From Lachnospiraceae bacterium (GTDB lineage Bacteria > Bacillota > Clostridia > Lachnospirales > Lachnospiraceae), in NCBI GenBank assembly GCA_017437065.1, contig JAFSBX010000029.1:1-64000 (forward strand): a stretch of 64,000 nucleotides of DNA, written 5' to 3'. Positions 29,615 through 54,456 of this stretch are shown piece by piece. The notes beneath the pieces are model-generated. The model was not told where the DNA came from and made no database searches. It saw only the letters and a program-made list of their open reading frames with translations. Every line of letters starts with the position of its first letter. Positions within the stretch are counted from its first letter, which is position 1. Made by a program: the position numbers and the translations under genes.

Positions 29615-29757
29615 TTAAAGGTTTTCAGCACTTCTTCGGGTTGGGCTATTCTAAAAATAGTCAACAGCTCGTAGGGGAATCGAACCCCATGAAAAATCCC
29701 ATTTTTCTAGTGTTTATGCACATTTTCAAGCACTCTCTACTGTTACCCACTGTTACC
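29615..29757. other. Putative integration (att) region of the mobile element
   Basis: The stretch beside the integrase gene contains a tRNA T-arm-like sequence on the minus strand (29671-29688, GGGG-TTCGATT-CCCC followed by TACGAGC), but no complete tRNA can be folded. This is what remains at the end of an element that integrated into a tRNA 3' end; the intact tRNA would then be beyond the right edge. Two direct ACTGTTACC repeats (29739-29747, 29749-29757) just after the integrase stop resemble arm-type integrase sites. A 22-base stretch at 29615-29636 recurs with a one-base gap at 60277-60299. The exact core is not defined. Confidence 0.5.
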
Positions 29758-29763
29758 TTCCAT

Positions 29764-30945
29764 TTACAACACAGCAGCTTGATTTAACATATCTTTCTTC
29801 TCATTATTGCTCATACGATTGTAATAATAGTGCTTTTTCAAACAGGTAATATCAGTATGTCCCATCTGCTCTATCATAAAAGATTCTGTAATTGTATCAG
29901 CATCATACAACTTTGAGCCATATGTTTTTCGTACTTTATGTGGTGATTTGACAACAATTTGTAACTTTTTACAGTTAGAATACAACCTTGTTCTAAACAC
30001 ATAACTTCTTATTCTTTCACCATCCTGCATAAACACATACTGCCCAAACGGACACAACTTTCTTATCTTATCAAGAATCCACACACAATTATCAGGAACT
30101 ATTACATCTCGAATACCAGCTTCTGTTTTGGGTACATTTTTTATATCATAATGTGTTACTCCATTTTCATCTTGATAAATCGTCTCTGTTTTCGTTATAT
30201 GAATTATATTCCCACAAATATCTTCCTTATTAAGAGCAACTAACTCTCCAATTCTTAATCCTGTTTTAAACAAAAGCAACAAGCCCATATTTAGCAAGTC
30301 TTCATTTTCTCGAAGATAATCAACCATTTTCCCCTCTTCTCCAACCATAAATACTTGTTCATTATCTTCATGATGAATTTTCTTGAATTCATTCTTTGAA
30401 AACTCAATATCGCTTACTGCTTCCTTAATGGAGAACTTAACTAACCCTTTTTTCTTCGCATAGCGGAAAATGCCATAAATCAACGTTCTCATATTACTGA
30501 AGGCTTTTCTTGTCAATTCCAACTCTTGAATCTGTCTTTTCATAAAATCTTCTATTTCAAGTTCTGTAAATGATTGAATTTTATGTGCCTTTATTTTGCC
30601 AAAATACCGCTTGAAATCTCGCAAATATCTACTATATGTAGCGTTAGAAATTTCTCCACGTTCTAATCGTAGCTTTATCCATTCCAAGAAAACAGATTCT
30701 ATTGTAGGATATTCCACCTTATCCTTCATATAATCTATAATAACATCTTCCAAAGCCTGCAAGGTTTTTCTATGCTTTAATTTTCTATTACCTGCTTCAT
30801 CATAAAAACTTGTGTACCACTCCCCATCCTTTCCTTGCCATATCTTATATGGATGCATGTCTAATAATTCTTTTTTCTTCATTTGCTCCATGTGCTTCCG
30901 CACATCATCAAGATTAATTATGCCATTACTTATCGCATATTGCAA
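29764..30945 (-). CDS. Tyrosine recombinase (phage/ICE-type integrase)
   Basis: A site-specific recombinase of 393 residues that integrates and excises the element. An N-terminal AP2-like arm-binding region (WQGKDGEWYTSFYDEAGN) precedes the core-binding domain (about 80-170) and the catalytic domain. The catalytic arginine lies in TGLRIGELVAL, the HKVRKTYGSKLYD box holds the second conserved His/Arg pair, and the nucleophile tyrosine lies in CLKKHYYYN. The start is uncertain: the frame is open for nine codons upstream (FSDNDALQ), no ATG is present, and TTG at 30945 is the only usual start. It is the outermost gene of the element, facing the att region. Confidence 0.92.
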   Translation of the reverse strand: MQYAISNGIINLDDVRKHMEQMKKKELLDMHPYKIWQGKDGEWYTSFYDEAGNRKLKHRKTLQALEDVIIDYMKDKVEYPTIESVFLEWIKLRLERGEISNATYSRYLRDFKRYFGKIKAHKIQSFTELEIEDFMKRQIQELELTRKAFSNMRTLIYGIFRYAKKKGLVKFSIKEAVSDIEFSKNEFKKIHHEDNEQVFMVGEEGKMVDYLRENEDLLNMGLLLLFKTGLRIGELVALNKEDICGNIIHITKTETIYQDENGVTHYDIKNVPKTEAGIRDVIVPDNCVWILDKIRKLCPFGQYVFMQDGERIRSYVFRTRLYSNCKKLQIVVKSPHKVRKTYGSKLYDADTITESFMIEQMGHTDITCLKKHYYYNRMSNNEKKDMLNQAAVL

Positions 30946-31342: not shown

Positions 31343-32122
31343 TCATGTAATATTTTTGTCAATCTTTGCTTTTAATTCAATTATTTCTTTTTGTAATTTT
31401 TTATTCTCATTTCTATATTTATCAGCTCTGGATTGATTACTTTTCCTTTGAATTGATAAGTATTCAATCCTTCTTTGATATTCATTGCTTTCTTCTAATA
31501 GTTTATTATATTCATTAGGGAAATATGTGTTAAGCATTGTATGTTTAATTTCTTCTAATAACTCGCATATTCCTAATTCATTAACATTCAATTTTCCCAT
31601 TCTATATAGGATTCTTGTCTGACTAATTACTTTTGCTTGATTGATATGAATGGCACAACGTTTACTAAAACCATCCTCTATATCCACAATTCTATAGTAT
31701 TTACTTCCATCTGGACTATCAATAGGATGATAACCTATTTCAAGATATTGTTTTTGTCCTGACACTGGCAATACAAATAAGAAATCTTCTATTTTTTCAA
31801 CTACAACACAAGGATGTTCGTAAGAAAGTTCTGGAGCATAAGATAGATTCCAATCAACCATAAAAATTTCTCCAATGTTAATTTCTCCGATTTTCCCATC
31901 TAAAGGTTGATGAAATTTATCATATCTATCTAACCAATCATTCATGCTTTTTATAAACAATCCAGTTTGATAAGATTTTGTTTTTTCAAATTTATTTATC
32001 AACTTAGAAAATAATCCAAATATAGACTTGGAAACAGTTTTATTGTCATAAGATAAAGTGTTTTTACATGTATCTACATTGTTTTTTAATTCATCTTTCA
32101 ATTCACGAATTGGTATCTGCAT
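31343..32122 (-). CDS. PemK/MazF-like protein with a C-terminal coiled coil
   Basis: A protein of about 259 residues. The middle (about 90-190) looks like the PemK/MazF fold: GEIFMVDWNLSYAPELSYEHPCVVVE, a strand ending in VLPVSG, and RCAIHINQAKVIS. By family MazF toxins cleave RNA. The N-terminal ~85 residues are helical and the last ~60 form a charged coiled coil (RADKYRNENKKLQKE), which plain MazF lacks. No antitoxin-like small gene is next to it. This longer form is frequent on Firmicutes mobile elements and may be a regulator rather than a free toxin. The ATG at 32122 follows GGAGAA. Confidence 0.7.
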   Translation of the reverse strand: MQIPIRELKDELKNNVDTCKNTLSYDNKTVSKSIFGLFSKLINKFEKTKSYQTGLFIKSMNDWLDRYDKFHQPLDGKIGEINIGEIFMVDWNLSYAPELSYEHPCVVVEKIEDFLFVLPVSGQKQYLEIGYHPIDSPDGSKYYRIVDIEDGFSKRCAIHINQAKVISQTRILYRMGKLNVNELGICELLEEIKHTMLNTYFPNEYNKLLEESNEYQRRIEYLSIQRKSNQSRADKYRNENKKLQKEIIELKAKIDKNIT

Positions 32123-32245
32123 AAAGTATTCTCCAATCAACGATAATATATACAATTATACACTAATAATTGACAGAATACCACAATTTTCCAATCCAAC
32201 CGCACCCATATCTCAGAGTGCGGTTTCCTTTCTTCAAAATTTTTA

Positions 32246-35200
32246 CTACCTTGTTATACTAGACTTCTGATAAGCATAATTGCTCATACCAAACACAGCC
32301 TTCTCAAGCTCAGTGCTTACTTTCATAGCAATTTCTTTGCTGTTAACATTTGGGCAATTTACAGTTATACCACCAACATTTACAGTCGGTTTGTTAACAG
32401 TATTAGTATTCACATTACTAATATTCTTCGTCAACATCTCCATATTTCTCTCAATTGCAGTCACAGGTGGTATAATCTGACTAGCAAGTTTATCTTGATA
32501 TGCTAAAAATTTCTGTGTCAACTCATAACCTTTATCACCTTCTTGCAACGGTCTGAGATAGGACGGAATTTCAACTTTTTTGAGAACTACATTACCATCA
32601 GCATACGCATTACCAAGAACAGTGCCTTTATTATTCATGATTCGCTTAGTTTGTTCTTCATTGAAGATTATTGTGTTGCGTGGCAAATCAGACATTGTAG
32701 GTGTATCAGTATATTCAACATCACCATTTGGATATACCGTTAACTCAGGTTGTCCATACTCAGAACGCAATGCATTTTTCTCATCATGAGGAAGTCCATT
32801 ATAGCCACCAGTACCATTAGCAAATGCTTTACCAACTGTACCTTCTGCATAACCTCTTGAATGTCCACCTCCACCATAAGACGAACCACTATTAGAAGAG
32901 TGACTTCCGCCACCTCCACCATTAGGTAAAGTAGGCATTCCGCCCAATTCAGCAATAGAATTAAAGGCAGATACCATTTTATTTAAAGATACGACACACT
33001 TATCAATAGTAGTAAGTAATTCTTCAAATAAAAGTTTCTCCAATGGTAATATTTCAGTTGCCCTATCATACTGTAACTGAATAGCACTGATAAGATTTTC
33101 AGCACCTTCGGCAGAACCAGATGTATTTGCCTCAGTTCCAATCAAATCAATTACATTCTGAACAGCAGTTTTTAACGCATTGAACTTACCAATTGTTCCT
33201 TCTTCTGAATCTTCTCCACCGTTACCAAGTGATTCTTCTGCTTTCTGTGCCATTTCTTCAATTGCACCAGTTAAGCTATTGGCAGAACCACTTTCAGCAT
33301 TAGCATTTAATCCAGCTTGTGCAACACCACTTGCTGCATTGTTATTGCCTTTGCTTGAAGCAGAAGATGAGCCACCACCAGAAATAGCATTTGTTACTTC
33401 ATCTACTTTGGCTTTAAGATTTCCAAACTGTGCAATAATTCCCAGTTCTTTATCTGCATCGCCTAGAGATAACTCACTGATTTCAGTTAAGGCTTGAACA
33501 AGTCCACTGACGGATTCATCTGTGCCAATGCCAAGAGCGTCTGCTACATTTTTAATCTCAGTTGCAAGGTCTTTAAATGCTGTAGCAAGGTTTGAAACCT
33601 TAGTCGATTCTGGCATTGTGTTTAAGGAATCTGAAATACCTGAGAGGTTTTCATCAACTCCTTCTGTGTTTGTGTTGAGGGTTTCTGCGGAAGAGGCTGT
33701 GTTGCTAAGACCAGTGCTTACACTACTCAAATCTGTTTTACCAAGGTTGTCAATGTTTTCCTTTGTTGTCTGTAATGATTTATCCAATGGAGCAAAGTCA
33801 GCACTGTCAGCAACTTCTTTCAGAGCAGTAACCATTTCATCACTACCAGAATGAATTTCTGTTAATAATGCAAGATAATGTTCTTTGAATGCTTGAAATG
33901 CAGAATCAGACATATTAAGAACTTCTTCTGTTGAGATTCCTAATTTATTGAAGATAACTTCCATTTCAGCTCTTTCTTCAATTTCTTTCAATTCATCCCA
34001 ACGAGATTTATAATCTTCAAGACCTTTAATCACTCCATCCCAATATTTCTCTGTTGATTCAATGAGGGAATCGTAATATTTATTTGAATTTTCTATCTTT
34101 TCATCCAAAGAATCAATAACATCTTCAAGACCTTTAATTTCAGTTTCCAAGGTAGAAATTTCTTTTTCAATACCTGCAATTTTGATACTTTCTTTGGCTT
34201 GTGTAACCGATTCACGGGCATCTCTTATACCAAATAAATCAGTATCATATTGCATCTGACCATCTTTATATAAAAGAACAGTCTTTTGATTCTGCTGACG
34301 AAGTAAGTCGAATTGAGCTTTTTGGAGTTCAATTTCTCGTTTTCTTTCTTCGCTGGCTTCATTAATGGCATCAATTTCTTTCTGTTTGGCATCAATTTTA
34401 GCCTGAATAGCATCAATCTGTGCCTGAACCAAGTCTTTTTCTGCTTCAAGAGCTTCTTCAGCAGCCTTTTTCTGTGCTTCTAAAGCATCAACGGCAGCGT
34501 CCTTCTGTTCATTAAATAAATCAATCTGGTCTCCAATAATATCTCCTATATGCCCGATTACGTTGCCCAAGTCTGAGAGTTCTTTTTCTAGTGCTTTTTT
34601 GTATTCTTCCACGGCATCTTTACCTGCTTTACCAGATGCTTTTGTAATAGGTGTGAAATCTACTTTAACATTATTGACTGCATTATTAATATCCGTTTGT
34701 AAAGCATTCAACTCTTTTTCATAATCAATAGGAATATGACCATCTGCACTGGCTTTTTCAAGATTTGCTATTCTTGCAGCTATAGCCGTTTGACCATAAG
34801 CCGTAGCAAGTTCCTTAAGTTCAGCAATCTTTTCGGCTGTGTTTAAATCTTGATTATTAAAGATTTGTTCAGCAGAGACTAACTGGAACAAATACATTCT
34901 TGCCGTTTCAGTAGCACCAGCTTGATTTAAGAATCCTGCTACAATATCATTTGATGCATTGGCAAGCTCGATGCCATGTTGTGTTGCAAATTGTTCTTGC
35001 AGTGCTAACGCTTCTGTTTGGGCATTTAACTTAGCAAATACAATTTCTTGGGCATTAGATACACCAATGCTTTCTAATAATGTGGCTACCATCTGAGCTG
35101 TACTGCTATCTAATTCCTTTGTAGAACTGACACCATTCAAAATAGCTGTGGCAAATTCATCCATGCTATTTTCAACATCTGTGGCGGTTGATTCTGTATT

Positions 35201-38146
35201 GGTTAATACTTTTGCTAAATTTTCAAAAGAAGAATAATCAATACTAATTCCTTCCATTTCGTTCAAGTCATCTACTGTGGATTTGATAGAGTCCAACATA
35301 GAAACGTCTACATTCTCTAATGTAAATCCATCCTCTGTGAAAATATCATTCCATGCATCTGATAATGAATCCATAGCAGGTTTAAGTTTTGTGTTGATTT
35401 CACTTACCATTTCTGAAATACCTAAATCGGTTATTTCAGGAGTAGCATCTTCCTCAATATCACGCTTCTGCTCTGCAAGATATTTTTTCAATTCTTCCAG
35501 CGATGCATTATCCAATTCGCATGAAAGCATGATTTTCTTATCTTCTTCTGATAACGTGTTAATCCAAGAAGATATTTGCTTATCCATATCCGATGAAGTG
35601 CTATATGTAGAACCATCAGACATATCTGTACCATGGGCAAATTTATCTTGCAAACGCTCCGATAATGTAATTGCAGTCCCGTCCGTATAATTCATCAGCA
35701 TATCATATTTAGCATATATGTCATCTAACATTGCTAATATATTATCTGTTTCTTCCGATATACCTGCAACAAGATTATCATCATCCGTTTGAAATTCACC
35801 TATGTATGTGTCTAATGCTTTCTGTACGGCAACAAGTACTTTCGTTTTGGAATTAATTTTATTTTGAATTAAATTAAAATCTGTAGAATCAACCGCATAT
35901 TTATCCTGCTCTTTCTGTAATGAATCAATCTCTTTATTTAATTCTACAATCTGATTCATGTAATCAAGAGAGGCTTGCATTCTGTCTCTATCCACATCCT
36001 GATACTTTCCTACTCCTCCAGCACCACGAGTTTCTTCATAGAATACTGTCGTACCTCTTGTTTTCCATACACCATTATCAGGAACAGATGTAAATACTTC
36101 TGTAGCAGCATCACTGGCATCTTTCTTAGCCTGTTTTTCCAAAGCTTCTTTAATGCGGAGTTCTCTTTCCAGTTCATCGTTTTGCTCTCGCAACTTCTTT
36201 AATGCTTCTTCATCGGTCGGGTCAATTTTATCTTTGGCAAGAATTTCATCTATCTTTTGCCCTGTAGTTTCCAACTCTGAATTAATTGTTGCGATTTCAG
36301 ATTGTAAGTCCGAAAGCTCTTGTGCGGATTTTTCTGCTTTCTCTCTTGCTTCTTCTGTAGAAATGGTAAGGGCATCATATGCCTTTGCCAACCCCGTAAT
36401 TGCAACTGCTGTAATTGTCACTATACCAGCTGGTGTACTTGCCCACGCCAAGGCTTGTTGTGCCAAATGGCTAGTTACTAATTGAATAGCCGTTCCTAAA
36501 CTCCTCTCAGCTACTCCCATTGCTAATATATCCGCAACAATGCTTCTTGCTCTAACCGCTCCCCATAATCTACCTGATACGGCAAGGGCTGCGTTTACCA
36601 TAACAATTTGTGTAGCCAATCTTCCTATTGGTGTATCTAAAGCAGAAATCACACCATACAATGCATCTAAAGAATATTTAATCAGAGAAGTATTGGCAAT
36701 ATTTGAAACATACTCTGTCCACCTTGCACTTACTCGTGCTGATTTTGCCTCCCATGAATCGAGATATAATTGATTTTCTTTGATTGCTGAATTTGCCGAA
36801 TCAAAGTATTCCGTTTGCATTTTCTTTACCATATCCCAATTCGACAGAATACCTGCAAGTACATTGGCTTGTCTCTTATCCGCAATACCTTCCAATAACA
36901 CACTTTGAGCCTCAGTATTTAAACTTGCCCATTTTTCGGATAATTCATCCAGTATATCCATTGGGTCGCGTAACTCTCTCGTTCCGTTAACAATTTCTTT
37001 TGTGGCTATCCCAACACCATTTAATGCTTTTTCTGCTTTCGCTATAGATTCATCATCTATGATTGTTCCATCGTCCAGTTCACCCTTAACCTCTCTAATA
37101 TTCATTAGCACTGTACGAATAGCACGAGATATTTCTGCACCTTCTCTTTGGGTTACTGCTGTACCAGTTCCGATGAGAGCCACCAAATCTGATATTTCAA
37201 GACCAGCTACTTGTGCCATAGACGCTGAAACTTGCAAACCGTCTGCCATTTTCTGCATAGACGTAGGATTAAGGTTCGCAATATTATTTAAACCATTTAC
37301 CACATCCGTAAGACTTTCAACATTGCCCTTTAGCTGATAAGCACTATCAACAGCAAGTAACATTTTATTTGCCGAAGAAGAACTCACATCACCTACGTTC
37401 TGTGTCAATAATGATACTTTACCAAGCTCTGTACTAAGCTCTTTATATCCACCTCTTGCAAACTCTGATACTGATTCCAGATATTCACTTGCAACCCTAC
37501 CATATTCCGTTGCAACACCGTAAGATGCTTTGCGGATTTTTTCAATCTCTTCTTCTGACATTCCTGTTGTTTTCCGCACATTTACCAATGCAGTATCAAC
37601 GTCTTTCATTTCTTTAAAAGATTTGCTAATTTCGTTTATAATACTAAACAGTGAACGATATACAATTAAATACCTAACTCCGTTAGATAAATATGTCACA
37701 AAATCGTTGGCATTTTCACCTGCTATTTGCATATGATTTCCAACATTCTGAACACCTTGTTCAACTTGATGCGTTACTCTATTATTAATGTTAAGAGTAC
37801 GATTCTGTTGAGCCAATGCCGTCAATGCTTGATTCTCTGTTTGTAAAGTTCTCTGACGAGAGATTTCCAATTGCTGTGATACCCTTAATCTCTCTGTCTC
37901 CAATCTATACTGTTGTTGTGCTTGCGTGAGATTTGCATTGATATTAACAGGTGTATTGTTTATCGTCCCCATTGTACGATATATCACATTTAATCTGTTA
38001 ATTATATTATCAAGATTTGTTCCATTGATATTCAGACTAATAGCTTGGTTATTGAGACGAGAAACGATATTTCTCACCCTATTTTCAACCGCTTGAACAG
38101 TGCTTTCATTTAAGGTTAGATTTAAACGTATTACATCATCAGCCAT
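32246..38146 (-). CDS. Phage tail tape measure protein
   Basis: A 1966-residue protein that sets tail length in siphophage-type tails. The TP901-type core lies at about 165-430 (DVDTALVNVRKTTGMSEEEI, IANLNPTSMQKMADGLQ). Hydrophobic segments near 530-590 are followed by long coiled-coil regions rich in Glu/Lys/Ala. The C-terminus has a Gly/Ser/His stretch and phage-type NGDVEYTDTPTMSDLP. At the usual rough scaling of 0.15 nm per residue it would specify a tail near 300 nm. ATG at 38146 with AAAGGAGG five bases away is preferred to a GTG two codons earlier. It is the last gene of a three-gene tail block; no baseplate genes follow. Confidence 0.92.
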   Translation of the reverse strand: MADDVIRLNLTLNESTVQAVENRVRNIVSRLNNQAISLNINGTNLDNIINRLNVIYRTMGTINNTPVNINANLTQAQQQYRLETERLRVSQQLEISRQRTLQTENQALTALAQQNRTLNINNRVTHQVEQGVQNVGNHMQIAGENANDFVTYLSNGVRYLIVYRSLFSIINEISKSFKEMKDVDTALVNVRKTTGMSEEEIEKIRKASYGVATEYGRVASEYLESVSEFARGGYKELSTELGKVSLLTQNVGDVSSSSANKMLLAVDSAYQLKGNVESLTDVVNGLNNIANLNPTSMQKMADGLQVSASMAQVAGLEISDLVALIGTGTAVTQREGAEISRAIRTVLMNIREVKGELDDGTIIDDESIAKAEKALNGVGIATKEIVNGTRELRDPMDILDELSEKWASLNTEAQSVLLEGIADKRQANVLAGILSNWDMVKKMQTEYFDSANSAIKENQLYLDSWEAKSARVSARWTEYVSNIANTSLIKYSLDALYGVISALDTPIGRLATQIVMVNAALAVSGRLWGAVRARSIVADILAMGVAERSLGTAIQLVTSHLAQQALAWASTPAGIVTITAVAITGLAKAYDALTISTEEAREKAEKSAQELSDLQSEIATINSELETTGQKIDEILAKDKIDPTDEEALKKLREQNDELERELRIKEALEKQAKKDASDAATEVFTSVPDNGVWKTRGTTVFYEETRGAGGVGKYQDVDRDRMQASLDYMNQIVELNKEIDSLQKEQDKYAVDSTDFNLIQNKINSKTKVLVAVQKALDTYIGEFQTDDDNLVAGISEETDNILAMLDDIYAKYDMLMNYTDGTAITLSERLQDKFAHGTDMSDGSTYSTSSDMDKQISSWINTLSEEDKKIMLSCELDNASLEELKKYLAEQKRDIEEDATPEITDLGISEMVSEINTKLKPAMDSLSDAWNDIFTEDGFTLENVDVSMLDSIKSTVDDLNEMEGISIDYSSFENLAKVLTNTESTATDVENSMDEFATAILNGVSSTKELDSSTAQMVATLLESIGVSNAQEIVFAKLNAQTEALALQEQFATQHGIELANASNDIVAGFLNQAGATETARMYLFQLVSAEQIFNNQDLNTAEKIAELKELATAYGQTAIAARIANLEKASADGHIPIDYEKELNALQTDINNAVNNVKVDFTPITKASGKAGKDAVEEYKKALEKELSDLGNVIGHIGDIIGDQIDLFNEQKDAAVDALEAQKKAAEEALEAEKDLVQAQIDAIQAKIDAKQKEIDAINEASEERKREIELQKAQFDLLRQQNQKTVLLYKDGQMQYDTDLFGIRDARESVTQAKESIKIAGIEKEISTLETEIKGLEDVIDSLDEKIENSNKYYDSLIESTEKYWDGVIKGLEDYKSRWDELKEIEERAEMEVIFNKLGISTEEVLNMSDSAFQAFKEHYLALLTEIHSGSDEMVTALKEVADSADFAPLDKSLQTTKENIDNLGKTDLSSVSTGLSNTASSAETLNTNTEGVDENLSGISDSLNTMPESTKVSNLATAFKDLATEIKNVADALGIGTDESVSGLVQALTEISELSLGDADKELGIIAQFGNLKAKVDEVTNAISGGGSSSASSKGNNNAASGVAQAGLNANAESGSANSLTGAIEEMAQKAEESLGNGGEDSEEGTIGKFNALKTAVQNVIDLIGTEANTSGSAEGAENLISAIQLQYDRATEILPLEKLLFEELLTTIDKCVVSLNKMVSAFNSIAELGGMPTLPNGGGGGSHSSNSGSSYGGGGHSRGYAEGTVGKAFANGTGGYNGLPHDEKNALRSEYGQPELTVYPNGDVEYTDTPTMSDLPRNTIIFNEEQTKRIMNNKGTVLGNAYADGNVVLKKVEIPSYLRPLQEGDKGYELTQKFLAYQDKLASQIIPPVTAIERNMEMLTKNISNVNTNTVNKPTVNVGGITVNCPNVNSKEIAMKVSTELEKAVFGMSNYAYQKSSITR

Positions 38147-38157
38147 AAGCACCTCCT

Positions 38158-38604
38158 TTAGTTCTTAGCTTTCTGAATCTGTGCGAACAATTCATCTTGT
38201 TGCTTTTTCAAATTTTCCAGTTTATCCGGTGTAAATTCTATAGCCAATGTTTCATTAAATCGCTGTATTGCATCATTACGATTGAAAACAATATTATTAA
38301 TCTCATTTTCAAGCATATCAACAAACACCGCGTAATCTAACCGCAATCTTTTGACACCTCTGCCCTTAAAATCTTCCGCTGAAAAATTATATTTATTATA
38401 CTGTTCAATACTCATAACTCTATCTTCCTGAAGTTCAAAAACCGATAAAAACCTTGAAAGTAATACTGTTTTTATGTACAGATGTTTCTTCAAAGAATCC
38501 ACTACTGTCACACCATTTTCATTTTTCTCCGTCACAAAATCAGCACCAACTAATGCCAATTTATAAATTTCTTCTAAGTCTGTTCCTTTATAATTGATTT
38601 CCAT
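38158..38604 (-). CDS. Unknown protein between tail genes, possible tail assembly protein
   Basis: A 148-residue protein with no motif I recognise. It is mostly helical, with a charged C-terminal helix pair (FTPDKLENLKKQQDELFAQIQKAKN as its last part, landmark QQDELFAQI). It starts with ATG after AGGAGG and lies 11 bases upstream of the tape measure gene. In tailed phages this position is normally held by tail assembly chaperones, which is the basis for the tentative call; there is no sign of the usual slippage between two chaperone frames. Confidence 0.55.
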   Translation of the reverse strand: MEINYKGTDLEEIYKLALVGADFVTEKNENGVTVVDSLKKHLYIKTVLLSRFLSVFELQEDRVMSIEQYNKYNFSAEDFKGRGVKRLRLDYAVFVDMLENEINNIVFNRNDAIQRFNETLAIEFTPDKLENLKKQQDELFAQIQKAKN

Positions 38605-38625: not shown

Positions 38626-39078
38626 TTATATGTATTTTTTAATTATGCCATTTGCATATTTGGTTGCTTCCTGTTGCACTACCTCAATAACATTTGTAGC
38701 TTCGCCTTTTCTTGGGTTATTGTTTGAACCTTTTATCCCATGGATAATACTTTCAATAAGTCCCTTTCTGAAATCCCCTTTGTCGAATCCTGAGTGAGTA
38801 CCCCACCCGTATAAACTTGGATTCACAGACATAAGTGCATCATCAAAGTAGACTTCAATACAATAGTTTCCCTGACCATTCTTTATTACTTTTCCTTCAA
38901 CCGCAGCTATCAATTCATATGTTCGCGAATAATCTGTGGGAGAGTATGATTTATACCATAATTCATCAACAGCTTCTCTCAACATATTTTTTGTTTCCAA
39001 CATAACCTGCTCGGCAACAAGATTTAGTTTAGTATCATATTTTTTCGTAATTTGTTGTAATTGTGCCTTAATACTCAC
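38626..39078 (-). CDS. HK97 gp10-like / tail-completion-type protein
   Basis: A 150-residue protein with an N-terminal amphipathic helix (QLQQITKKYDTKLNLVAEQV) followed by a beta-rich middle (NYCIEVYFDDALM) and the segment WGTHSGFDKGDFRKGLIESI. Size and layout fit the HK97-gp10/tail-component family involved in head-tail or tail-terminator functions. It begins at a GTG with AAGGAG upstream. It is the first gene of the three-gene tail block. Assignment rests on pattern and position, not on a catalytic motif. Confidence 0.55.
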   Translation of the reverse strand: MSIKAQLQQITKKYDTKLNLVAEQVMLETKNMLREAVDELWYKSYSPTDYSRTYELIAAVEGKVIKNGQGNYCIEVYFDDALMSVNPSLYGWGTHSGFDKGDFRKGLIESIIHGIKGSNNNPRKGEATNVIEVVQQEATKYANGIIKKYI

Positions 39079-39195
39079 TTTGTCTCCTTATGTATTTTTC
39101 TATTGACAATCCTTGTATGGTTATATATAATTGACAACATATTATATATTTGTGTGTAGTTTAACCATTTTTCAGCTTTAAAAAAATAAAATATA

Positions 39196-39381
39196 TTAAT
39201 GACTATCGAGATAATCGTTCAATTTGATTAAAGAACTTTCCCACAATTCTCTCTTCCCTGTCTTGAAATTGCTGAGTATCTGCTTTGGAATACCCACTTG
39301 TTTAGCAATATACTGTTGCTGACCTTCAATCATTTTTTGAATTAATTTTGCTCTTACAGTGTCCTGACTAATTTCTGTCAT
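39196..39381 (-). CDS. Small helix-turn-helix protein
   Basis: A 61-residue DNA-binding protein (MTEISQDTVRAKLIQKMI, then QQYIAKQVGIPKQILSNFKTGKREL) with a Cro/Xre-type helix-turn-helix. The ATG at 39381 has an excellent AAGGAGG; an upstream ATG at 39453 would add 24 residues with poor fold. It lies between a hairpin-rich gap and the tail block, so it may control those genes. It resembles the other small HTH gene at 39939-40154. Confidence 0.7.
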   Translation of the reverse strand: MTEISQDTVRAKLIQKMIEGQQQYIAKQVGIPKQILSNFKTGKRELWESSLIKLNDYLDSH

Positions 39382-39453
39382 AAATGGTTTACCTCCTTCT
39401 TTTTGTGTTTCACATATGAAATTTAATTCATAATAAAATATAGAAGCATACAT

Positions 39454-39938: not shown

Positions 39939-40154
39939 TTACAACACAAGTCCATTGATTTGTAAAAAATCATCGACTCTTTTTAATGTATCTACATATT
40001 GACCAATCATTTTCATGTGATAATCCGGCAAAACCAGCTTACCATTTGTCCAAGCCGATAACTGTTGAATTGAAATGCCAAGCGTCTTAGCCATATGGGA
40101 CTTGGAAATTCCATACTGACTAAGGTAGTCCTTTACTTCATTCTGTAATCCCAT
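39939..40154 (-). CDS. Xre-family helix-turn-helix protein
   Basis: A 71-residue protein that is essentially one HTH domain: KDYLSQYGISKSHMAKTLGISIQQLSAWTNGK, followed by a helix for dimer contact. ATG after AAGGAGGTCTT. It lies about 100 bases after the RNA polymerase gene on the same strand. By family it would be a Cro-like repressor; its operators are not identified, but the hairpin-rich region immediately downstream is a candidate. Confidence 0.75.
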   Translation of the reverse strand: MGLQNEVKDYLSQYGISKSHMAKTLGISIQQLSAWTNGKLVLPDYHMKMIGQYVDTLKRVDDFLQINGLVL

Positions 40155-40258
40155 AAGACCTCCTTATAATCTTTCATTAAAATTTTTCCTAAATTATTTC
40201 TTTCTCTATATAGCGTTGGCACTTTTTATTCACTTTAGCCAATTTACCCTTGTGTTTC

Positions 40259-43200
40259 CTAGGATATTTTTGTTATATTTTCACGAAGTTCATTTTCTAA
40301 ATCTAAAATGGCAGAGGTTCCTTTGTCATACCTAAAATAATCCCTTATCATCGTACCTGCTTTATTATAATCTTCAGTCTCAATCCAAGTTTCTCCTTCA
40401 TGATACGGAAATAGTACTCTTATCTTTGTACCACCACGATAAATAACACTTTCTACTATCCCCCTCTTCTCAAATAATGCAATTGCTGAATCCATGTATT
40501 TATGACTTACGTCCGTCAATCGTTCCAATGTTATATCAGTAAGTTCATTCGGCACATTATTCAGCTTTTTCATCCATTGTGGAACCCCATTTTCATCTTC
40601 GTATTTACGACTGAGATATACCAACATGGTCAAAATACGTTTCAATTTAGCGACATTATCTTTACGCTTAATTGTTTTTTCTTCATATGCTTTATTTATT
40701 AAATTATTGATACATTTTCTATCTTCTTTTGTAAGCAAAACACTTTTGTCCTTGTATTGAGTACTTCCCTGTATCGAGTTGATAATTACCTTTTTTCTAT
40801 TAGCATTCTTGTTCTTTTGCTTTTTTGCAAATTCAACATTTCTCTTATGATTCTCTTCCAATTTAGAGAAATCAATATTTGCCATAATAGTTTCGCCAGA
40901 ACTCCTTACAATCATCTCATCTGGAAAAGCATTCCATAAAATATCCTTTTCCAAATCCAAGAATTTTGCACCATTCTTCTTATCACCATAGTAAATTATC
41001 ACAAGCATATCAATGAGCTTATTAATGTCTGGTTCTAAAATCAATAATTCTGTTCTGCATTTTTCATAAAACCATCTATACTTGTTTGCAGCCGACCTCT
41101 GATGTGATTTTGACTTTAAGGCTTCTTCGTTATACCACTTTGCAATTTCCCTATATTCTCTCTGTAATACTTGCACCATACGATATACTTTGCGGTTAAT
41201 AGATGGCTGACTACGGAGAAAACATTTTCGATAATCAAAATCATATTCGCTTGTCTTCAAATCAATATGTGCAATTTCCGTTTCTGCATAATGACACAAC
41301 CGATTCATATTGCAATCATAATCCTTGAATTTTCGTATCTTCTCAATCTCCTGCTCCGACTTTCCTGCGTTCCTTGCTTTTTTTAGTGCCTTTTCTTCCG
41401 CTAATGCCTCTGCACTATTTTTAGCGAGATACCGCATCCAATATCCACGTTTACAAGACTTAAAAAAGTTCTTTATTTCTTTCGGAAAAAAAGCATTCTC
41501 TCCCGTTTTTGCAAAATCAATTGTTTCTCCACCAACAATTACACCTATCTTAATGTAATCTCTGACTTTTTGCTCGTCTACATGAACACAAGACCATAAA
41601 TCAGTTACTCTATCAATGACAGAACCTATTGAATTCTTAAAAGACATCTGGTTCACCTTCATCAAGGCAGCTCTATCCGCAACGCAAATCTCTTTTTTAG
41701 TTTTCTCTTTCTTATTAGGTTCAACTTTTACAACTAATCTTCCATTTCCGGCTTTAAATTCCCTTTGAACCGCATCAATAAAAGGCTTACTATCAAAAAC
41801 TGCGACAGAATCGCCATCAAAATCTGCGTTCCCGATTACTAATGCTAATGCGTCATACATTCCCGTAACAATTCCTGTACTCTGAAACTTATACCACTTT
41901 TTAAGTTCTTTATTATTTCTTAAATGACAAATTCTATGTTCCATTCCGACATGCGGATTCCTTATCATATCTACATCAAATGCCCCTCTGTCATTCCACC
42001 AATCTGAATAAATATGATATGGCTCTTTTAGTAACCCTTGTGGTTCACGTCCTAATTCATCATGAAAAGCCCATTCTGCTAATCCATATAAATCCGGCAT
42101 AAAGACTTGATAATTACCATGTACAAATAATTTTCCTGCTAAGAGATTGTTTCTTAATTTTTCAATATCAGATTCTATCTTGCCATGCACATATTTGTCA
42201 TGAAACAATTCTTTATTACGACTTAGTGCTACATAATACGGTGGTGTATATTTATCAATATTTTCTACTTCCTCACCATCATCAGATATGTCAATTAATG
42301 CCCTATACTTCAGAAATTCGTCAACATTTGATACTATCTTACGATAAATATCAATTCCTGTCTTACTTACTACTGGTATTTCTTCATCCGTAAAATTAAT
42401 AGTCTGTTCAGGTTGGTAACTTAACATTGTTTTACTTGCCAAATCAGAAGGATGTACGCCATAGGAAACAATATTGAATGTTCTATTATAACCATGGCAT
42501 TTCTTATCAAATTCATTTCTCCACAGTGTATAGTCAAAATTACCATCCTTATCAAGATACTGTTTCCAGAACTTAAACTGGGATTTTGTAAGAATCACAT
42601 CTATCTCGTCTTTAAAAATATCCCATTCTCTTCCACCCAAATCAATAATCTTTGATACATGCATTTCTTTCGCAAAACGCTTCAAATCAAAGACCATAAC
42701 CTCACCTTTTATGCCCGGAATAGCACGAAACTGAAAACATGATGGCAAATAGAATTTTCCTTTACGAGATTTACAATCAAGTTCTTTCGCCCATTTCAAT
42801 GCACATTCCGGCGTAACTAATCCTGCACCATCAAAAGGAAGTATTTCTAATAACTCTCTACACCTTTTTCTTCCTTTATGCCCAATGGGTTTATACTTCT
42901 TATTATCGCCTGTTCCAGATACCTCTACTATATCCACTTTCTCTTTAATTGACTTCTTATAATCATCAATAACAACAATTTTAGGTGCATTTGACAATGC
43001 TGTACTATCTGTTGTTACCATCGCATAATAAGCATTCCATTTTGACGGTGTATCATGCATAAGATTTTTGGGCATTCCACAAAGAAGAATATCATTAAGT
43101 TTATCTACAACCTCCATATCTACAAACAAGTTCTTTTGTGTTCTAGAATGACCTGCTCCACAAAATGTAGATGCATATTGCTTGGTATCTTTCTTTTTCG

Positions 43201-43573
43201 TAACATAATGATTATCCTTGTCCAAAATCTTATTACCTTCTTCATCCAGTACATATTCCATATTAGTAATTTTCAATATACCTTTGTCCTTAATTAATTT
43301 ATCATATCTTGCAATATTCTTACCCACATCCAATGTAAAGAATGAAGGAACTATGTCGTATCCACTTGTATTCTTTTCTGGCTTATCATCCTCAGATTTT
43401 TTATTTAGATGCATCAAAATCCTGTGCATTTCACTTTCACTTGCAAGATTCTTTGAATTTTCCTGCTTATATGGCGATAAAACAATTTCATTCTCAAAAG
43501 TTCCATCATCGTTTTTTACTAAATCATTAATATTAATATTCTGAATTTCAACCATTTTACTTATAACAATCAC
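40259..43573 (-). CDS. Single-chain double-psi beta-barrel RNA polymerase, YonO-like
   Basis: An 1104-residue protein. The motif NADFDGDSVAVF (D584, D586, D588) is the Mg2+-binding catalytic loop of multisubunit RNA polymerase beta' and of its single-chain relatives. Upstream, DGAGLVTPE (from D248) and FQFRAIPGIKGEVMVFD (280-296) match the first-barrel region shared by SPbeta YonO and eukaryotic RNA-dependent RNA polymerases. YonO is a sigma-independent DNA-dependent RNA polymerase for SPbeta late genes; this protein is about 200 residues longer. It is far too small and divergent to be host RpoC. The last ~250 residues are helical and charged. GTG at 43573 or ATG at 43555 could be the start; GGAG lies awkwardly for both. 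The tail block lies downstream. DNA versus RNA template is inferred from YonO. Confidence 0.85.
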   Translation of the reverse strand: MIVISKMVEIQNININDLVKNDDGTFENEIVLSPYKQENSKNLASESEMHRILMHLNKKSEDDKPEKNTSGYDIVPSFFTLDVGKNIARYDKLIKDKGILKITNMEYVLDEEGNKILDKDNHYVTKKKDTKQYASTFCGAGHSRTQKNLFVDMEVVDKLNDILLCGMPKNLMHDTPSKWNAYYAMVTTDSTALSNAPKIVVIDDYKKSIKEKVDIVEVSGTGDNKKYKPIGHKGRKRCRELLEILPFDGAGLVTPECALKWAKELDCKSRKGKFYLPSCFQFRAIPGIKGEVMVFDLKRFAKEMHVSKIIDLGGREWDIFKDEIDVILTKSQFKFWKQYLDKDGNFDYTLWRNEFDKKCHGYNRTFNIVSYGVHPSDLASKTMLSYQPEQTINFTDEEIPVVSKTGIDIYRKIVSNVDEFLKYRALIDISDDGEEVENIDKYTPPYYVALSRNKELFHDKYVHGKIESDIEKLRNNLLAGKLFVHGNYQVFMPDLYGLAEWAFHDELGREPQGLLKEPYHIYSDWWNDRGAFDVDMIRNPHVGMEHRICHLRNNKELKKWYKFQSTGIVTGMYDALALVIGNADFDGDSVAVFDSKPFIDAVQREFKAGNGRLVVKVEPNKKEKTKKEICVADRAALMKVNQMSFKNSIGSVIDRVTDLWSCVHVDEQKVRDYIKIGVIVGGETIDFAKTGENAFFPKEIKNFFKSCKRGYWMRYLAKNSAEALAEEKALKKARNAGKSEQEIEKIRKFKDYDCNMNRLCHYAETEIAHIDLKTSEYDFDYRKCFLRSQPSINRKVYRMVQVLQREYREIAKWYNEEALKSKSHQRSAANKYRWFYEKCRTELLILEPDINKLIDMLVIIYYGDKKNGAKFLDLEKDILWNAFPDEMIVRSSGETIMANIDFSKLEENHKRNVEFAKKQKNKNANRKKVIINSIQGSTQYKDKSVLLTKEDRKCINNLINKAYEEKTIKRKDNVAKLKRILTMLVYLSRKYEDENGVPQWMKKLNNVPNELTDITLERLTDVSHKYMDSAIALFEKRGIVESVIYRGGTKIRVLFPYHEGETWIETEDYNKAGTMIRDYFRYDKGTSAILDLENELRENITKIS

Positions 43574-47004: not shown

Positions 47005-47664
47005 TCATCCCCATATTATTGACTCTTCTACATACTTATTGAATTGGCTCTTAGGGCTATCACAGACAATAATTTCTTCACATTGCATATCCTTAACTTT
47101 CCGATAATCACAAACAACTTCCTGTTCATTTCTGCTATTAAAAAGAACGATAATATCCTTTTTATGTACTCTGCCAGTAAATACATAACCTTTATCACCA
47201 TCAGTTTTAAATCGCTTTGCGAACCATTCCGCTACACCCTTATCCGTTGTCCATGACAATCCTTTATGGCTATTAACACCTACACCACGATAAATAGTAA
47301 CCATATCATCAGGAGACAAATCATCAATATCTGACTGTAACAATGGTGACTTTGTAGCCAATTTCATAAATTTAATTAATTTGGTTTTACACATACCACA
47401 ATCATGAAATCTCTCTTGCATAGTCCAAATATCATAGACCATATCAGCACACTCTTGGTCTGTTATTGCTCCTAACTTATACAGATAATCCAAATAAGCA
47501 AATCTATTACCTTTATTAATGGCACTTACACAATGAGATAATTTTTCTGCTTTTGAAAGTCGTTCAAATCGTCTTTGCCTATCTTCTTCATCGTACAGAA
47601 AATTGTCACATGGTAAGTATGATAAATACATTTTGGTATATTCTTTTATAGTGTCCATATTCAT
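47005..47664 (-). CDS. ADP-ribosyltransferase-fold protein (R-S-E type)
   Basis: A 219-residue protein whose second half carries the three signature elements of R-S-E ADP-ribosyltransferases. These are an arginine in IYRGVG (R126), the STT-like turn LSWTT (S137), and the ExE loop EQE (E180, E182). The N-terminal 110 residues are helical and unmatched. Such enzymes move ADP-ribose from NAD+ onto proteins, RNA or DNA; phage members (Alt, ModA) modify host RNA polymerase or ribosomal proteins. The ATG at 47664 with AGGAG eight bases upstream is preferred to one nine codons earlier. It is divergent from a second transferase-like gene 95 bases away. Confidence 0.72.
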   Translation of the reverse strand: MNMDTIKEYTKMYLSYLPCDNFLYDEEDRQRRFERLSKAEKLSHCVSAINKGNRFAYLDYLYKLGAITDQECADMVYDIWTMQERFHDCGMCKTKLIKFMKLATKSPLLQSDIDDLSPDDMVTIYRGVGVNSHKGLSWTTDKGVAEWFAKRFKTDGDKGYVFTGRVHKKDIIVLFNSRNEQEVVCDYRKVKDMQCEEIIVCDSPKSQFNKYVEESIIWG

Positions 47665-47759
47665 ATATAAATTCTCCTCATAATTTTTCATTATTAATTA
47701 AATGTGATACAATATCCTCATAACACCAACACAAATACATTTTTATGAATGGAGTACAT

Positions 47760-48338
47760 ATGAGAACAAAATATAAAAACTTTTTTCGTGAAACAGATGC
47801 CGATAACTGGGTTAATACATATAAAAAATACTTCCCTTCAAATGAGGATGAAGACAAAGATTTCTTATCGGCAATCCATTATTACACTGGTTCAGCAAAT
47901 ACCCTAATTAATAATGCTTTACGTTATGACAAAAACATACTGGATAATGATTTTATGCAACCTATCTTCCAACGTTTGATTGAAAAAGTACCCACTTATC
48001 AGATTCCAGATAATATTGTCGTGTATCGCTACATTTCAAAAGGTCTTCTCAAAGAAATGTGTCCCTCATACCCACCAAGAAAAAGTATGATTATCTGCGA
48101 CAAAGGTTTTATGAGTACAACTCTTATTAGGACAAGTATTAACGACTATAGACGTTCAAATCCACATCAAAATATTTTATTAGAAATATCTGTTCCTGCT
48201 GGTACAAAAGGAATATATGTAGGACATTTAGAAAACACTCTTTCTGAATATGAAGCTATCCTTGCTCCTAATACAAAACTACGCATTGAATATAGCTCTT
48301 TATTCTCTAAATATTTTCGATGTACTGTGGTATCTTAG
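47760..48338 (+). CDS. ADP-ribosyltransferase-fold protein (ADPrib_exo_Tox-like)
   Basis: A 192-residue protein with VVYRYIS (R90), GFMSTT (S119 of the STT turn), and SEYEAIL (E163, E165 of the ExE loop), the full R-S-E triad of arginine- or asparagine-modifying toxins such as C3-type and related phage enzymes. No secretion signal is visible, so it should act inside the producing cell. The ATG at 47760 follows TGGAG; an ATG 15 bases earlier lacks a site. It is one of few plus-strand genes in the element, divergent from the other transferase gene; sequence similarity between the two is limited to the motifs. Confidence 0.75.
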   Translation: MRTKYKNFFRETDADNWVNTYKKYFPSNEDEDKDFLSAIHYYTGSANTLINNALRYDKNILDNDFMQPIFQRLIEKVPTYQIPDNIVVYRYISKGLLKEMCPSYPPRKSMIICDKGFMSTTLIRTSINDYRRSNPHQNILLEISVPAGTKGIYVGHLENTLSEYEAILAPNTKLRIEYSSLFSKYFRCTVVS

Positions 48339-48934: not shown

Positions 48935-49864
48935 TTAATACAATTCCATTAAACTTTCATCTGTTTCATATAAATTATCTATATCAAGCAAATCAGCATC
49001 AATATCTTCCGATTGAACTTCATCTAATGTAGGGATTTCAAGCATTTCTTCTTCACTGAAATCATGCATTGCATCAGGTTCTCCCCATTGGTCAGAATCA
49101 ACTCCAAATATTTTATCTTTATTCTTTGAGACACCTGACAGATTATTAGTTGGTGGATAGAACCCATCAATAAAACCATAATATATTTGTAATTCCTTTA
49201 TAAAAGCTTCCTTCGTAGATTTGTTAATATACTTTTCTTCTAATGCATAGACATTATTAGAATTCACAGTAATTTCCTTACCTTTTCTCATCCTCAAATA
49301 TGAACCATAATTTACAACATATAACATTTTCAATCCACAAAGTATTTCTGTATTCTTTTTTACTGTGCCTACACTACACCCACATTCTTTTGCCAATGTT
49401 TCTTCGCTTGGAAAAGTAAACGGTCTTGCAGAACCAGCATCTACATCAGCAGATATATTCTTTTTAATATTCATATACAAATACAAAACTTTATCCATAT
49501 TTTTTGTGTTACTGCTTCGCAAAGTATCAATCTCAGAATACAGAAGTTTGGTAAATTGACCTAGCGGATTCCATTTATCATCAAGATTTATCAATTGCAC
49601 TGTAAACATCATATTGCAATCAACATCATCTAACAAAGTAAGCCCACCGTTGGAGTAACAACCAATGTATTCAATAAAACCTTTATCAATCATTAATTGT
49701 AACGTACTGTAAACCTTGTCATTAATACGCCCTTTATTCCTGTTTGGTATAAAATTATGATAAAGAATAAAATCCTTTATGGTAAGATTCACATATCCTT
49801 CAATACTCTTATGCCGATGCAGATATGCATACATAAGCATAAATAATTCATCATACTGTTCCAA
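48935..49864 (-). CDS. Winged-helix replication initiator-like protein
   Basis: A protein of at least 309 residues. Two winged-helix-like segments can be seen: one near the N-terminus (VYSTLQLMIDKGFIEYIG) and one at about 140-190 (PSEETLAKECGCSVGTVKKN). The C-terminal ~80 residues are strongly acidic. This two-winged layout fits plasmid RepA-type or phage replisome-organiser proteins. Five tandem iterons lie 85-160 bases upstream, which strongly favours replication initiation. The visible TTG start lacks a site; the frame continues upstream through 17 codons (NDYFTKYDNSYL) to the AAGGATGG region, so a non-standard start (ATT) or a start error is likely. Confidence 0.65.
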   Translation of the reverse strand: MEQYDELFMLMYAYLHRHKSIEGYVNLTIKDFILYHNFIPNRNKGRINDKVYSTLQLMIDKGFIEYIGCYSNGGLTLLDDVDCNMMFTVQLINLDDKWNPLGQFTKLLYSEIDTLRSSNTKNMDKVLYLYMNIKKNISADVDAGSARPFTFPSEETLAKECGCSVGTVKKNTEILCGLKMLYVVNYGSYLRMRKGKEITVNSNNVYALEEKYINKSTKEAFIKELQIYYGFIDGFYPPTNNLSGVSKNKDKIFGVDSDQWGEPDAMHDFSEEEMLEIPTLDEVQSEDIDADLLDIDNLYETDESLMELY

Positions 49865-53150: not shown

Positions 53151-54203
53151 TTAATCAAGTTCACGCAATAAATCTAAACTTACTTGTCTACGTTTACTAT
53201 TCTCTTTCTGCACAACGACAACAGGCTCTTCATCCACCTCCTCCAAATCATCCAAAATAGTAAATGCTTTTCTTTTCTGAATACGTTCTTTCTGTTCTTC
53301 CATAGCCTTCTTACCCAAACTTGAAATATATTCAACTGGGAATCCTAATCCAGATGCACATGCAATATTTACAGTTCCATTGTTTCCAATAAAGATATTT
53401 TCAGGATTTCCAATTGCCTTAACAATCTCATGCTCGTTTATACGATTATCCTTTTGATTGATAATTCCGATATTTGCAACAATCCCATCATTATTAATAG
53501 GAAGAAAAATGTTTTTTGCCGTCAATGCATTAATTACATCCTGTGTGCTTACCTTATTATTCTCTGACTTGTTATCAGATAACATTGATATTACAAATGC
53601 TCCATGGTCAGATAACATTTTCATCTTTTCTGAATCATCAAAATTAGAACCACTTGAAGTTGAATCATCTGAAAAGAATGCATCCAACATATTCACCAAT
53701 GTTTGATTGATTTTCTTCAAATCAGTATAGGATTCATTGTTAACAAAAATGATTGCTCCCATTTCTGGTATTGACATCAACTCTTTCGCCACATTATATG
53801 CATTAATCCGTTTCTGAATCGGTTCATCTCTTCTCGGCATTAACAGAGCTGCACAAACAATCTTACTTGGGTCAGTACATTCTATTTCACAAACGGGAAC
53901 TATACTTCCTGAACCTGTTGTTCCACCGCCGGTTGCAATATTCAAAATAATCTTTTGTTCAATTGCTCGTATTTTTCTTAGAATCTCTTTGTTGTTTTTT
54001 AACGCTTCATAAGCAAGTGACCTGTCACCGGCAAGCCCATCATATCCTTCTAGTACCATGAGATTTTTCGCACCTGCTACCGATTTATTGTCTTGTACAG
54101 AACCATTAATAAGCATTGAATAGTAATTCCTTTGTTGAAATTCATATCCACATGATTCACCACCTAATCCTAATCCTACAACTGCCACATTATTCTTTAT
54201 CAT
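53151..54203 (-). CDS. tubZ: TubZ-type tubulin/FtsZ-family GTPase
   Basis: A 350-residue cytomotive GTPase that forms filaments to move plasmid or phage DNA. The N-terminal nucleotide-binding strand VVGLGLGGESCG (8-19) is followed by the tubulin signature GGGTTGSGS (92-100). The C-terminal ~50 residues are charged and end with a basic/hydrophobic tail (RRQVSLDLLREL), as in TubZ, where the tail contacts TubR. It is clearly not host FtsZ, which would lie in a division cluster. ATG overlaps the tubR stop by 14 bases and follows GAGGAGG. This matches the tubR-tubZ order of Bacillus plasmids and clostridial phage c-st. Confidence 0.82.
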   Translation of the reverse strand: MIKNNVAVVGLGLGGESCGYEFQQRNYYSMLINGSVQDNKSVAGAKNLMVLEGYDGLAGDRSLAYEALKNNKEILRKIRAIEQKIILNIATGGGTTGSGSIVPVCEIECTDPSKIVCAALLMPRRDEPIQKRINAYNVAKELMSIPEMGAIIFVNNESYTDLKKINQTLVNMLDAFFSDDSTSSGSNFDDSEKMKMLSDHGAFVISMLSDNKSENNKVSTQDVINALTAKNIFLPINNDGIVANIGIINQKDNRINEHEIVKAIGNPENIFIGNNGTVNIACASGLGFPVEYISSLGKKAMEEQKERIQKRKAFTILDDLEEVDEEPVVVVQKENSKRRQVSLDLLRELD

Positions 54204-54456
54204 CTTGTAATCCTCCTCGCATCTCTACAATATCAATTCCTTTTTGTTGCAAATAGAAAGTATCTGCATTTGTCGATTTACAACCTCTTTTTACATAACC
54301 AAGTTTTTCCAAATTTATCATTTTTCGATATGTAGTTGGTCTTGAAGTCTTTGTGAAACTCATTATTTCTTGCAACGTTGCGCTTTCAAAATGACTTATG
54401 CAGTTTTTCTTTTTCAACAGCTTTAGAATCACATAATCTAATCTGTTTAATTCCAT
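54190..54456 (-). CDS. tubR: TubR-like winged-helix DNA-binding protein
   Basis: An 88-residue protein that is a single winged helix: LDYVILKLLKKKNCISHFES, then LQEIMSFTKTSRPTTYRKMINLEKLGYVKRG with the wing following. TubR binds a centromere (tubC) and hands it to TubZ filaments. The size, position immediately upstream of tubZ and overlap with it fit. ATG is preceded by GGAAGGAG. An ordinary MarR/ArsR-like regulator would be the alternative without the tubZ context. Confidence 0.7.
   Translation of the reverse strand: MELNRLDYVILKLLKKKNCISHFESATLQEIMSFTKTSRPTTYRKMINLEKLGYVKRGCKSTNADTFYLQQKGIDIVEMRGGLQDDKE

Follow-up and report, generated by a model that had tools for sequence, protein, structure and literature searches.

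The RNA polymerase YonO of SPbeta (Bacillus subtilis) is a DNA-dependent enzyme to which the late transcripts of SPbeta are due, all from one start (Forrest et al. 2017, PMC5467207); the same paper leaves the YonO promoter sequence and the need for other factors to be determined. YonO-like enzymes have been named in two jumbo phages (review PMC7824862), and single-chain polymerases with two barrels are also described as gp96/gp64 of phage P23-45 and gp66 of crAss-like phages (PMC10770324). Here we describe a gene of this kind in a 64,000-nucleotide stretch of DNA from a Lachnospiraceae bacterium (GenBank assembly GCA_017437065.1, contig JAFSBX010000029.1, positions 1 to 64,000; hereafter the window), where it forms part of an integrated element. 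The window protein has in common with SPbeta YonO a homologous catalytic core, the Asp triad, the single chain and a gene position ahead of co-directional late genes. It differs in that YonO, at 839 amino acids, ends in a zinc ribbon whereas the window protein ends in a partner-like stretch of about 205 residues; identity is about 24-25%, and the window's element has no recognisable head genes. Other YonO-type polymerases (for instance that of Bacillus phage BUCT082) share the core and have a partner protein that is homologous by profile to the window's C-terminus, but the partner is there a separate open reading frame (ORF) at the polymerase stop, whereas in the window it is fused and without zinc ribbon. 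In P23-45, gp96 is fused to the tape-measure protein, in contrast to the separate genes of the window.

The explanation that we favour, and consider probable, is that the product of the gene is a DNA-dependent RNA polymerase of the YonO family, belonging to an integrated element derived from a phage; this polymerase would carry a fused C-terminal domain, start at positions 40200-40224 and transcribe a tape-measure unit. The grounds for this explanation are the family membership, the profile homology between C-terminus and partner, the gene layout, the recurrence of the site and the packaging genes not being found, all of them computed directly. The features concerned are the following (window coordinates).

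40259..43573, minus strand: YonO-family single-chain RNA polymerase, 1104 amino acids, GTG start, running from 43573 down to 40259.
41810..41824, minus strand: DFDGD catalytic loop (D584/D586/D588), the second-barrel signature, from the alignment with YonO and relatives.
40262..40879, minus strand: C-terminal extension, residues about 899-1104 (~205 residues), with profile homology to the separate partner of other YonO-type polymerases; winged-helix-like by reading alone.
40200..40224, minus strand: candidate promoter AAGTGCCAACGCTATATAGAGAAAG, which starts 34 nt past the polymerase stop and whose TATATAG core leaves about 52 nt up to the following start codon.
39939..40154, minus strand: small helix-turn-helix (HTH) protein by family scan, the first gene past the candidate promoter.
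39196..39453, minus strand: second small HTH protein, with a homologue in assembly G226 (3.6e-16).
38626..39078, minus strand: virion-structural-protein-like protein, 150 amino acids (phrog_7299, 2.8e-6, a family filed under head and packaging).
38158..38604, minus strand: 148-amino-acid protein directly before the tape-measure gene, listed for its position only; no family match.
32246..38152, minus strand: tape-measure-like protein, 1968 amino acids (phrog_4211, 1.5e-67; PhageMin_Tail, 3.2e-17).

A sequence-only reading of the window had proposed a single-chain polymerase related to YonO, distinct from the host beta' subunit and sharing segments with eukaryotic RNA-dependent polymerases, and all of this was borne out. 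The 1104-residue ORF is present at 40259-43573, on the minus strand (the plus-strand reading of this interval has 48 stops), and contains the motifs NADFDGD (D584/D586/D588), DGAGLV (D248-G251) and FQFRAIPGIKG (R283, K289, G290) that had been pointed out. Both barrel signatures, DGxG...R...KG and DxDGD, lie in this one chain. Across an alignment of 46 sequences, the window protein included and some rows being fragments, no variation occurs at R144, K178, Y182, D248, G249, G251, R283, K289, G290 and D584, and conservation at D586 and D588 is at least 90%. Among PHROGs families the protein matches phrog_8308 (7.9e-81, 273.7 bits, residues 5-919) and, in second place, phrog_25339 (1.3e-27); no Pfam family scored above cut-offs. 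Since SPbeta YonO itself falls in phrog_8308 (1220 bits, residues 8-827), the two proteins are tied through one profile. A tblastn search returned 35 phage records including SPbeta (6e-26, 25% over 52% of the query), none of which covers 80% of the query. The best relatives being YonO-type proteins, identity with host beta' was set aside. The gene is the sole match of its kind at E 0.001 in its own 3.9-Mb, 156-contig assembly. At the level of sequence, membership of the YonO family is firm, and the protein is predicted to be catalytic.

The kinship with eukaryotic enzymes emerges from the 46-sequence profile (the window polymerase as a single sequence found no meaningful match in the PDB). Nine PDB sequences were listed for this profile, RNA-dependent RNA polymerases on top, at values from 9e-8 to 1e-6: 7w82 (9.1e-8), 7w84 (9.9e-7) and the RNA-dependent RNA polymerase 2 chains 7eu0 and 7roz (~1e-6). 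QDE-1 (2j7n) was reached at 0.059, and gp96/gp64 of P23-45 and the crAss-like gp66 were not among the nine. In the alignments shown, the DGxG...R...KG and DxDGD stretches are paired with 7w82, 7eu0 and 7w84. This similarity to RNA-dependent polymerases and QDE-1 would suit an RNA-templated polymerase, the name that some records give to relatives (e.g., in Psychrobacillus phage Perkons), but the characterised family member, YonO, has a strong preference for DNA templates (PMC5467207), and we regard RNA templating as highly improbable.

Polymerases with 71%, 56% and 53% identity to that of the window were found by genome scan in Parablautia intestinalis, C. citroniae and Robinsoniella peoriensis, respectively; the first and the last are Lachnospiraceae, a family in which 41 of 397 genomes, the window's own included, hold some YonO-type match. 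The gene is intact, and comparison of four genomes shows strong constraint on its amino-acid sequence; between window and Parablautia, pN (nonsynonymous) is 0.169 and pS (synonymous) 0.751, the latter saturated. To judge from the sequences, the gene is being kept. In a 62-row tree, made by a quick method, the window protein groups with those of Parablautia, C. citroniae, Robinsoniella, locus L025 and assemblies G169 and G399 with full support (100 in the Shimodaira-Hasegawa-like approximate likelihood ratio test), while the polymerases of locus L034 and assembly G103, the latter a long branch, pair with each other (97) beside the YonO branch (99).

In many YonO relatives a second ORF abuts or overlaps the polymerase stop. 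This partner ORF matches a partner profile below 1e-3 in 36 of 94 distinct full-length loci, near-copies included; 31 partners were used in the profiles and so match by construction, and one of the 36 is doubtful (L067, 4.9e-6), as it looks like a homing-endonuclease ORF. The partners measure 172-314 residues and, by reading, combine a helical with a winged-helix-like part, to which a zinc ribbon is often added. No partner-sized ORF stands behind the polymerases of L034 and L025, and the C-termini of these polymerases match a profile of 27 partners (1.5e-18 for L034, zinc ribbon included; 2.4e-11 for L025). Partner matches were also obtained for the C-termini of G103 (5.6e-10), G169 (1.0e-7) and G399 (7.0e-9). 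In this last test polymerases that end in a zinc ribbon, such as YonO, match too (7.6e-7), a result that we attribute to nothing but the ribbon; since a ribbon is absent from G169, G399, L025 and the window protein, their match must lie elsewhere.

With a profile enlarged by five fused relatives, the C-terminus of the window protein scored 2.8e-5 (best of 2000 shuffled decoys, 0.033) and that of Parablautia 0.0049. Profile-profile comparison gave 40.7 for the window with L002 and 45.6 for four window-type C-termini, against largest null values of 21.2 and 19.1, respectively (100 column shuffles each). Two results speak against the assignment: versus the partners-only profile the window C-terminus is not significant (E 0.59), and the C-termini of L002 and L106 are not among the enlarged-profile matches listed. 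On the strength of the profile comparisons, we take homology between C-terminus and partner as shown, and the C-terminus appears to be a fused accessory subunit, for which promoter recognition may be the simplest role. The statement of the sequence-only reading that YonO works without sigma factors is not established: the YonO paper leaves the need for extra factors open (PMC5467207), and a fused accessory domain seems to be present here. A search of open-licence papers at the level of titles found none on a YonO partner or on an element such as this one.

The candidate promoter lies in a 53-nt block, holding AAGTGCCAACGCTATATAGAGAAAG, that is 79% identical between window and Parablautia (E 4e-6) and is the only same-strand DNA match below E 0.01 between polymerase and tape-measure gene. 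A Gibbs search of nine loci reached 17.8 bits, as against a shuffled mean of 15.5 and a largest value of 16.9 (30 shuffles, which had fewer restarts than the real data and thus favour the latter), with seven of the nine rows on the site. When each locus was left out in turn, the site ranked first in five of the nine (window, Parablautia, citroniae, G169 and L025), second in L034 and third in G399. Leaving out whole groups, with L025 counted apart from G169/G399, gave ranks of 1 in G169, 2 in L034, 3 in L025, 6 in Parablautia, 30 in G399 and 108 in citroniae. Stable hairpins (-17 to -24 kcal/mol) precede the site in G169, G399, G103 and L025, and no stable hairpin was found before it in the window or Parablautia. 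Second copies with up to five mismatches were not seen in the seven elements scanned.

Several results weigh against the site. In the eight loci other than the window it was first picked by eye, in the same place as the window's. Its leave-one-out rank was 79 in Robinsoniella and 317 in G103, and with whole groups left out it fell to rank 65 of 96150 in the window itself and to 1797 and 883 in Robinsoniella and G103, neither of which supports it. Among 39 other YonO-type loci the motif did not recur convincingly: six reached p 0.05 (binomial p 0.012), and several of these look like ribosome-binding sites. Finally, a sigma-70-like match at 9 of 12 positions (40222-40193) overlaps the candidate promoter; such matches occur in the region at chance frequency (33 found, 31.4 expected from shuffles).

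Two other patterns were tried and rejected. When the two closest relatives were dropped, a Gibbs search of the remaining seven loci converged on another pattern (19.2 bits; largest null, 18.1). A crude core pattern was found in 33 of 98 loci (shuffled mean 15.9, largest 27), many of the hits being near-identical SPbeta-type sites or ribosome-binding sites. In SPbeta, a single GAGATAATCGTCATAAGGGAGA between yonO and yonN (L007 14222-14243), with near-identical copies in SPbeta-like phages, is a candidate for the YonO start region; the published YonO start (position 2225998 of strain 168) was not mapped to the phage record, no coordinate key having been found. Elsewhere in the window, a 12/12 match to a sigma-70-type promoter (39103-39131, plus strand) faces against the tail unit, between the 150-amino-acid gene and an HTH gene. 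Repeats around the polymerase gene showed nothing distinctive, and Rfam gave no match within 29000-64000.

The recurrence of the site is a computed result, from which we infer its use as a promoter. The layout and one recurrent site fit late transcription from one promoter downstream of the polymerase gene. In the scheme that we favour, excision or induction of the element would let its polymerase initiate at the AT-rich sequence shortly after the polymerase gene (40200-40224); the fused C-terminal domain, as counterpart of the separate partner, would help to recognise this site; and transcription would proceed through the two HTH genes, the gp10-like gene, the gene of the 148-amino-acid protein and the tape-measure gene, down to 32246. 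The partner, fused here and separate elsewhere, and a recurring site in a fixed place together offer a handle on how YonO-type polymerases find their promoters.

On the strand that encodes the polymerase, the tape-measure gene comes further downstream. The sequence-only reading, which placed the polymerase upstream of a same-strand tail gene block, was thus right about order and strand; the block comes down essentially to a single tape-measure gene, preceded by two small ORFs. When 11 sequences were compared, the 150-amino-acid protein, which we call gp10-like, showed weak similarity to ORFs in G102 (16.4 bits) and G103 (11.6 bits). Tail-assembly chaperones are usually encoded directly before the tape-measure gene, the position held here by the 148-amino-acid protein. 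ORFs of 58-78 amino acids, HTH-like by reading, also stand behind the polymerase in G102, G226, G169, G399, G103 and phage G105. Seven other assemblies were compared (G311, G226, G102, G169, G399, G103 and G105; the contigs of G311, G169 and G103 are parts of their elements), and related elements occur in six other genomes or records. In six of the seven, a gene homologous to the window's tape-measure gene is found downstream of the polymerase on the same strand, the exception being G105; in G169 and G399 an integrase gene comes almost directly after this homologue.

Closeness to the tape-measure gene, together with the precedent of gp96 of the Thermus phage P23-45 (PMC10770324), could indicate a virion polymerase that travels in the tail together with the tape-measure protein and enters the cell by injection. 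We think this very unlikely, given that the two genes are separate ORFs with small HTH genes in between, that the characterised relative YonO appears upon induction and synthesises late transcripts (PMC5467207), and that no head genes were found in the element.

The virion-like genes of the element are those for the tape-measure protein and the virion-structural-protein-like protein. All element ORFs of at least 100 amino acids in G000 were scanned with PHROGs or Pfam (one part of the scan listing 25 of its 26 matched families), and no terminase, portal or major head protein was found among them. The host assembly gave no match to PF03354, PF04466 or PF03237 at E 0.001, and two weak phrog_2 matches lie off the element. 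Twenty-five ORFs of the Robinsoniella element were scanned likewise, with no terminase, portal or head family among the 25 of 46 families listed. The large terminase subunit, portal and major head protein of its own that define a complete tailed prophage are thus not seen in the element. They could be too divergent for recognition: many ORFs have no assigned function, a capsid protein of 250-350 amino acids could hide among them, and a 2471-residue protein of Robinsoniella matches, besides tail families, the 'minor head protein' family phrog_1775 (3.8e-32). However, G000 has no unassigned element ORF of at least 400 amino acids, hence none of the usual terminase or portal size, though a smaller capsid protein would fit. 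Moreover, G105, the nearest true phage found, whose polymerase belongs to the window's clade, has a recognisable terminase (5.1e-90), portal (4.6e-80) and major head protein (4.3e-104). In G105 these genes and a tape-measure gene come after those for the polymerase and a small HTH-like protein. Head and packaging genes of this lineage are therefore detectable, and a complete phage is distinctly unlikely.

The same lack of terminase, portal and major head protein, along with a KAP-family NTPase gene that looks split, would also accord with a decaying SPbeta-like prophage that has lost its head genes and retains the polymerase as a functionless relic. A remnant is unlikely in our view, because the polymerase is intact and constrained (see above) and because elements whose integrases differ repeat the layout of polymerase followed by tape-measure gene, again with no packaging genes seen. 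The KAP ORF (window 58593-59917), apparently in two pieces, has a 452-amino-acid single-ORF homologue in Robinsoniella.

The location on a mobile element, likewise proposed from the sequence, is upheld by a 57-bp repeat that overlaps the 3' end of tRNA-Glu(CTC) and by an integrase gene. From repeat to repeat the element measures 48.1 kb, with a G+C content of 33.1% as against 38.6% and 37.8% in the flanks; its mobility is inferred. The attachment (att) ends were tested for the window's element alone. No empty insertion site was seen, the same-genus genome G002 not being syntenic there. The polC gene adjoining attR is intact (1515 amino acids), and an apparent split of it was rejected as an artefact of the region border. 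Further features of the element within the window are these.

29632..29688, no strand: attL, a perfect 57-bp repeat; the partner copy, attR, is at contig C7 77675-77731, outside the window.
29764..30945, minus strand: tyrosine integrase beside attL (phrog_1, 4.3e-32; 'tyrosine' by reading).
31343..32155, minus strand: PemK/MazF-like domain protein, weak, from family scans.
48935..49864, minus strand: DnaD/replication-initiation-like protein (phrog_186, 3.3e-4).
53151..54203, minus strand: TubZ-like tubulin homologue (TubZ_C_3, 0.0017, below cut-off; TGSG and other residues invariant in four aligned sequences).
54190..54456, minus strand: TubR-like winged-helix protein overlapping tubZ (weak winged helix-turn-helix matches; pair conserved in G102, G103 and G399).

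Satellites are generally without packaging and capsid genes of their own, capsid-forming phage-inducible chromosomal islands (cf-PICIs) being different, and they integrate site-specifically by means of an integrase and att repeats; the element resembles them in both respects. To our knowledge, which is not exhaustive, such elements would be the first kind of satellite to possess an RNA polymerase of their own. Tape-measure genes on integrative elements are also known from PLE11 of Vibrio cholerae and putative cf-PICIs, and PLE11 particles are built with helper capsid proteins (PMC12987554). That 2026 paper states that a tape-measure protein had been reported for none of the other satellites, and one of its extended-data legends deals with putative cases. 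The window's element differs in its 48 kb, its tubulin-like partition pair, its own RNA polymerase and the lack of a known helper. It is a tentative idea, and rather a doubtful one, that capsid-less satellite-like elements of Lachnospiraceae have a dedicated single-chain polymerase, with promoter recognition built in as a domain, for the expression of a tape-measure protein of their own, by which the tail of a helper phage would be remodelled. The presence of the polymerase on elements without recognisable head genes suggests that satellite-like elements may make use of such enzymes, and this would widen the known satellite cargo. The novelty lies in the candidate promoter, in the fusion of a partner-like domain and in a setting that lacks recognisable head genes.

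The sequence-only reading had further suggested that the element carries its own transcription system. It does have its own polymerase, but it also encodes a sigma factor resembling those of extracytoplasmic function (ECF; contig C7 67630-68238, L015:7630-8238, outside the window; PF07638, 6.8e-7), so a fully separate system is not implied and host RNA polymerase may be redirected too.

The TubZ/TubR pair is conserved in three of the seven other assemblies. TubZ had no match in the PDB, nor by tblastn in phages or plasmids, and strict tubulin-signature patterns did not match; the TGSG block is visible in the alignment. TubZ of the G103 element is 64% identical to the window's and its polymerase 25% (L140-L141); since G103 thus combines the window's type of TubZ with a polymerase of another branch, a swap of polymerases on a shared backbone may have taken place. 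On another viral contig (L029 3603-5050), a PhuZ/TubZ-like gene (phrog_4733, 8.5e-12) and a small ORF stand beside a YonO-type polymerase gene and an HU-like gene, so that the neighbourhood of tubulin and polymerase recurs in the window's element and L029. Other products of the window's element are two cold-shock-type proteins, an HU-type protein and a J-domain protein. A YoeB/YefM-type toxin-antitoxin pair is encoded on it at contig C7 64710-65276 (L015), and an ADP-ribosyltransferase-like ORF (phrog_3895, 1e-8) is divergent from a phrog_4776 ORF (window 47745-48338 and 47005-47691).

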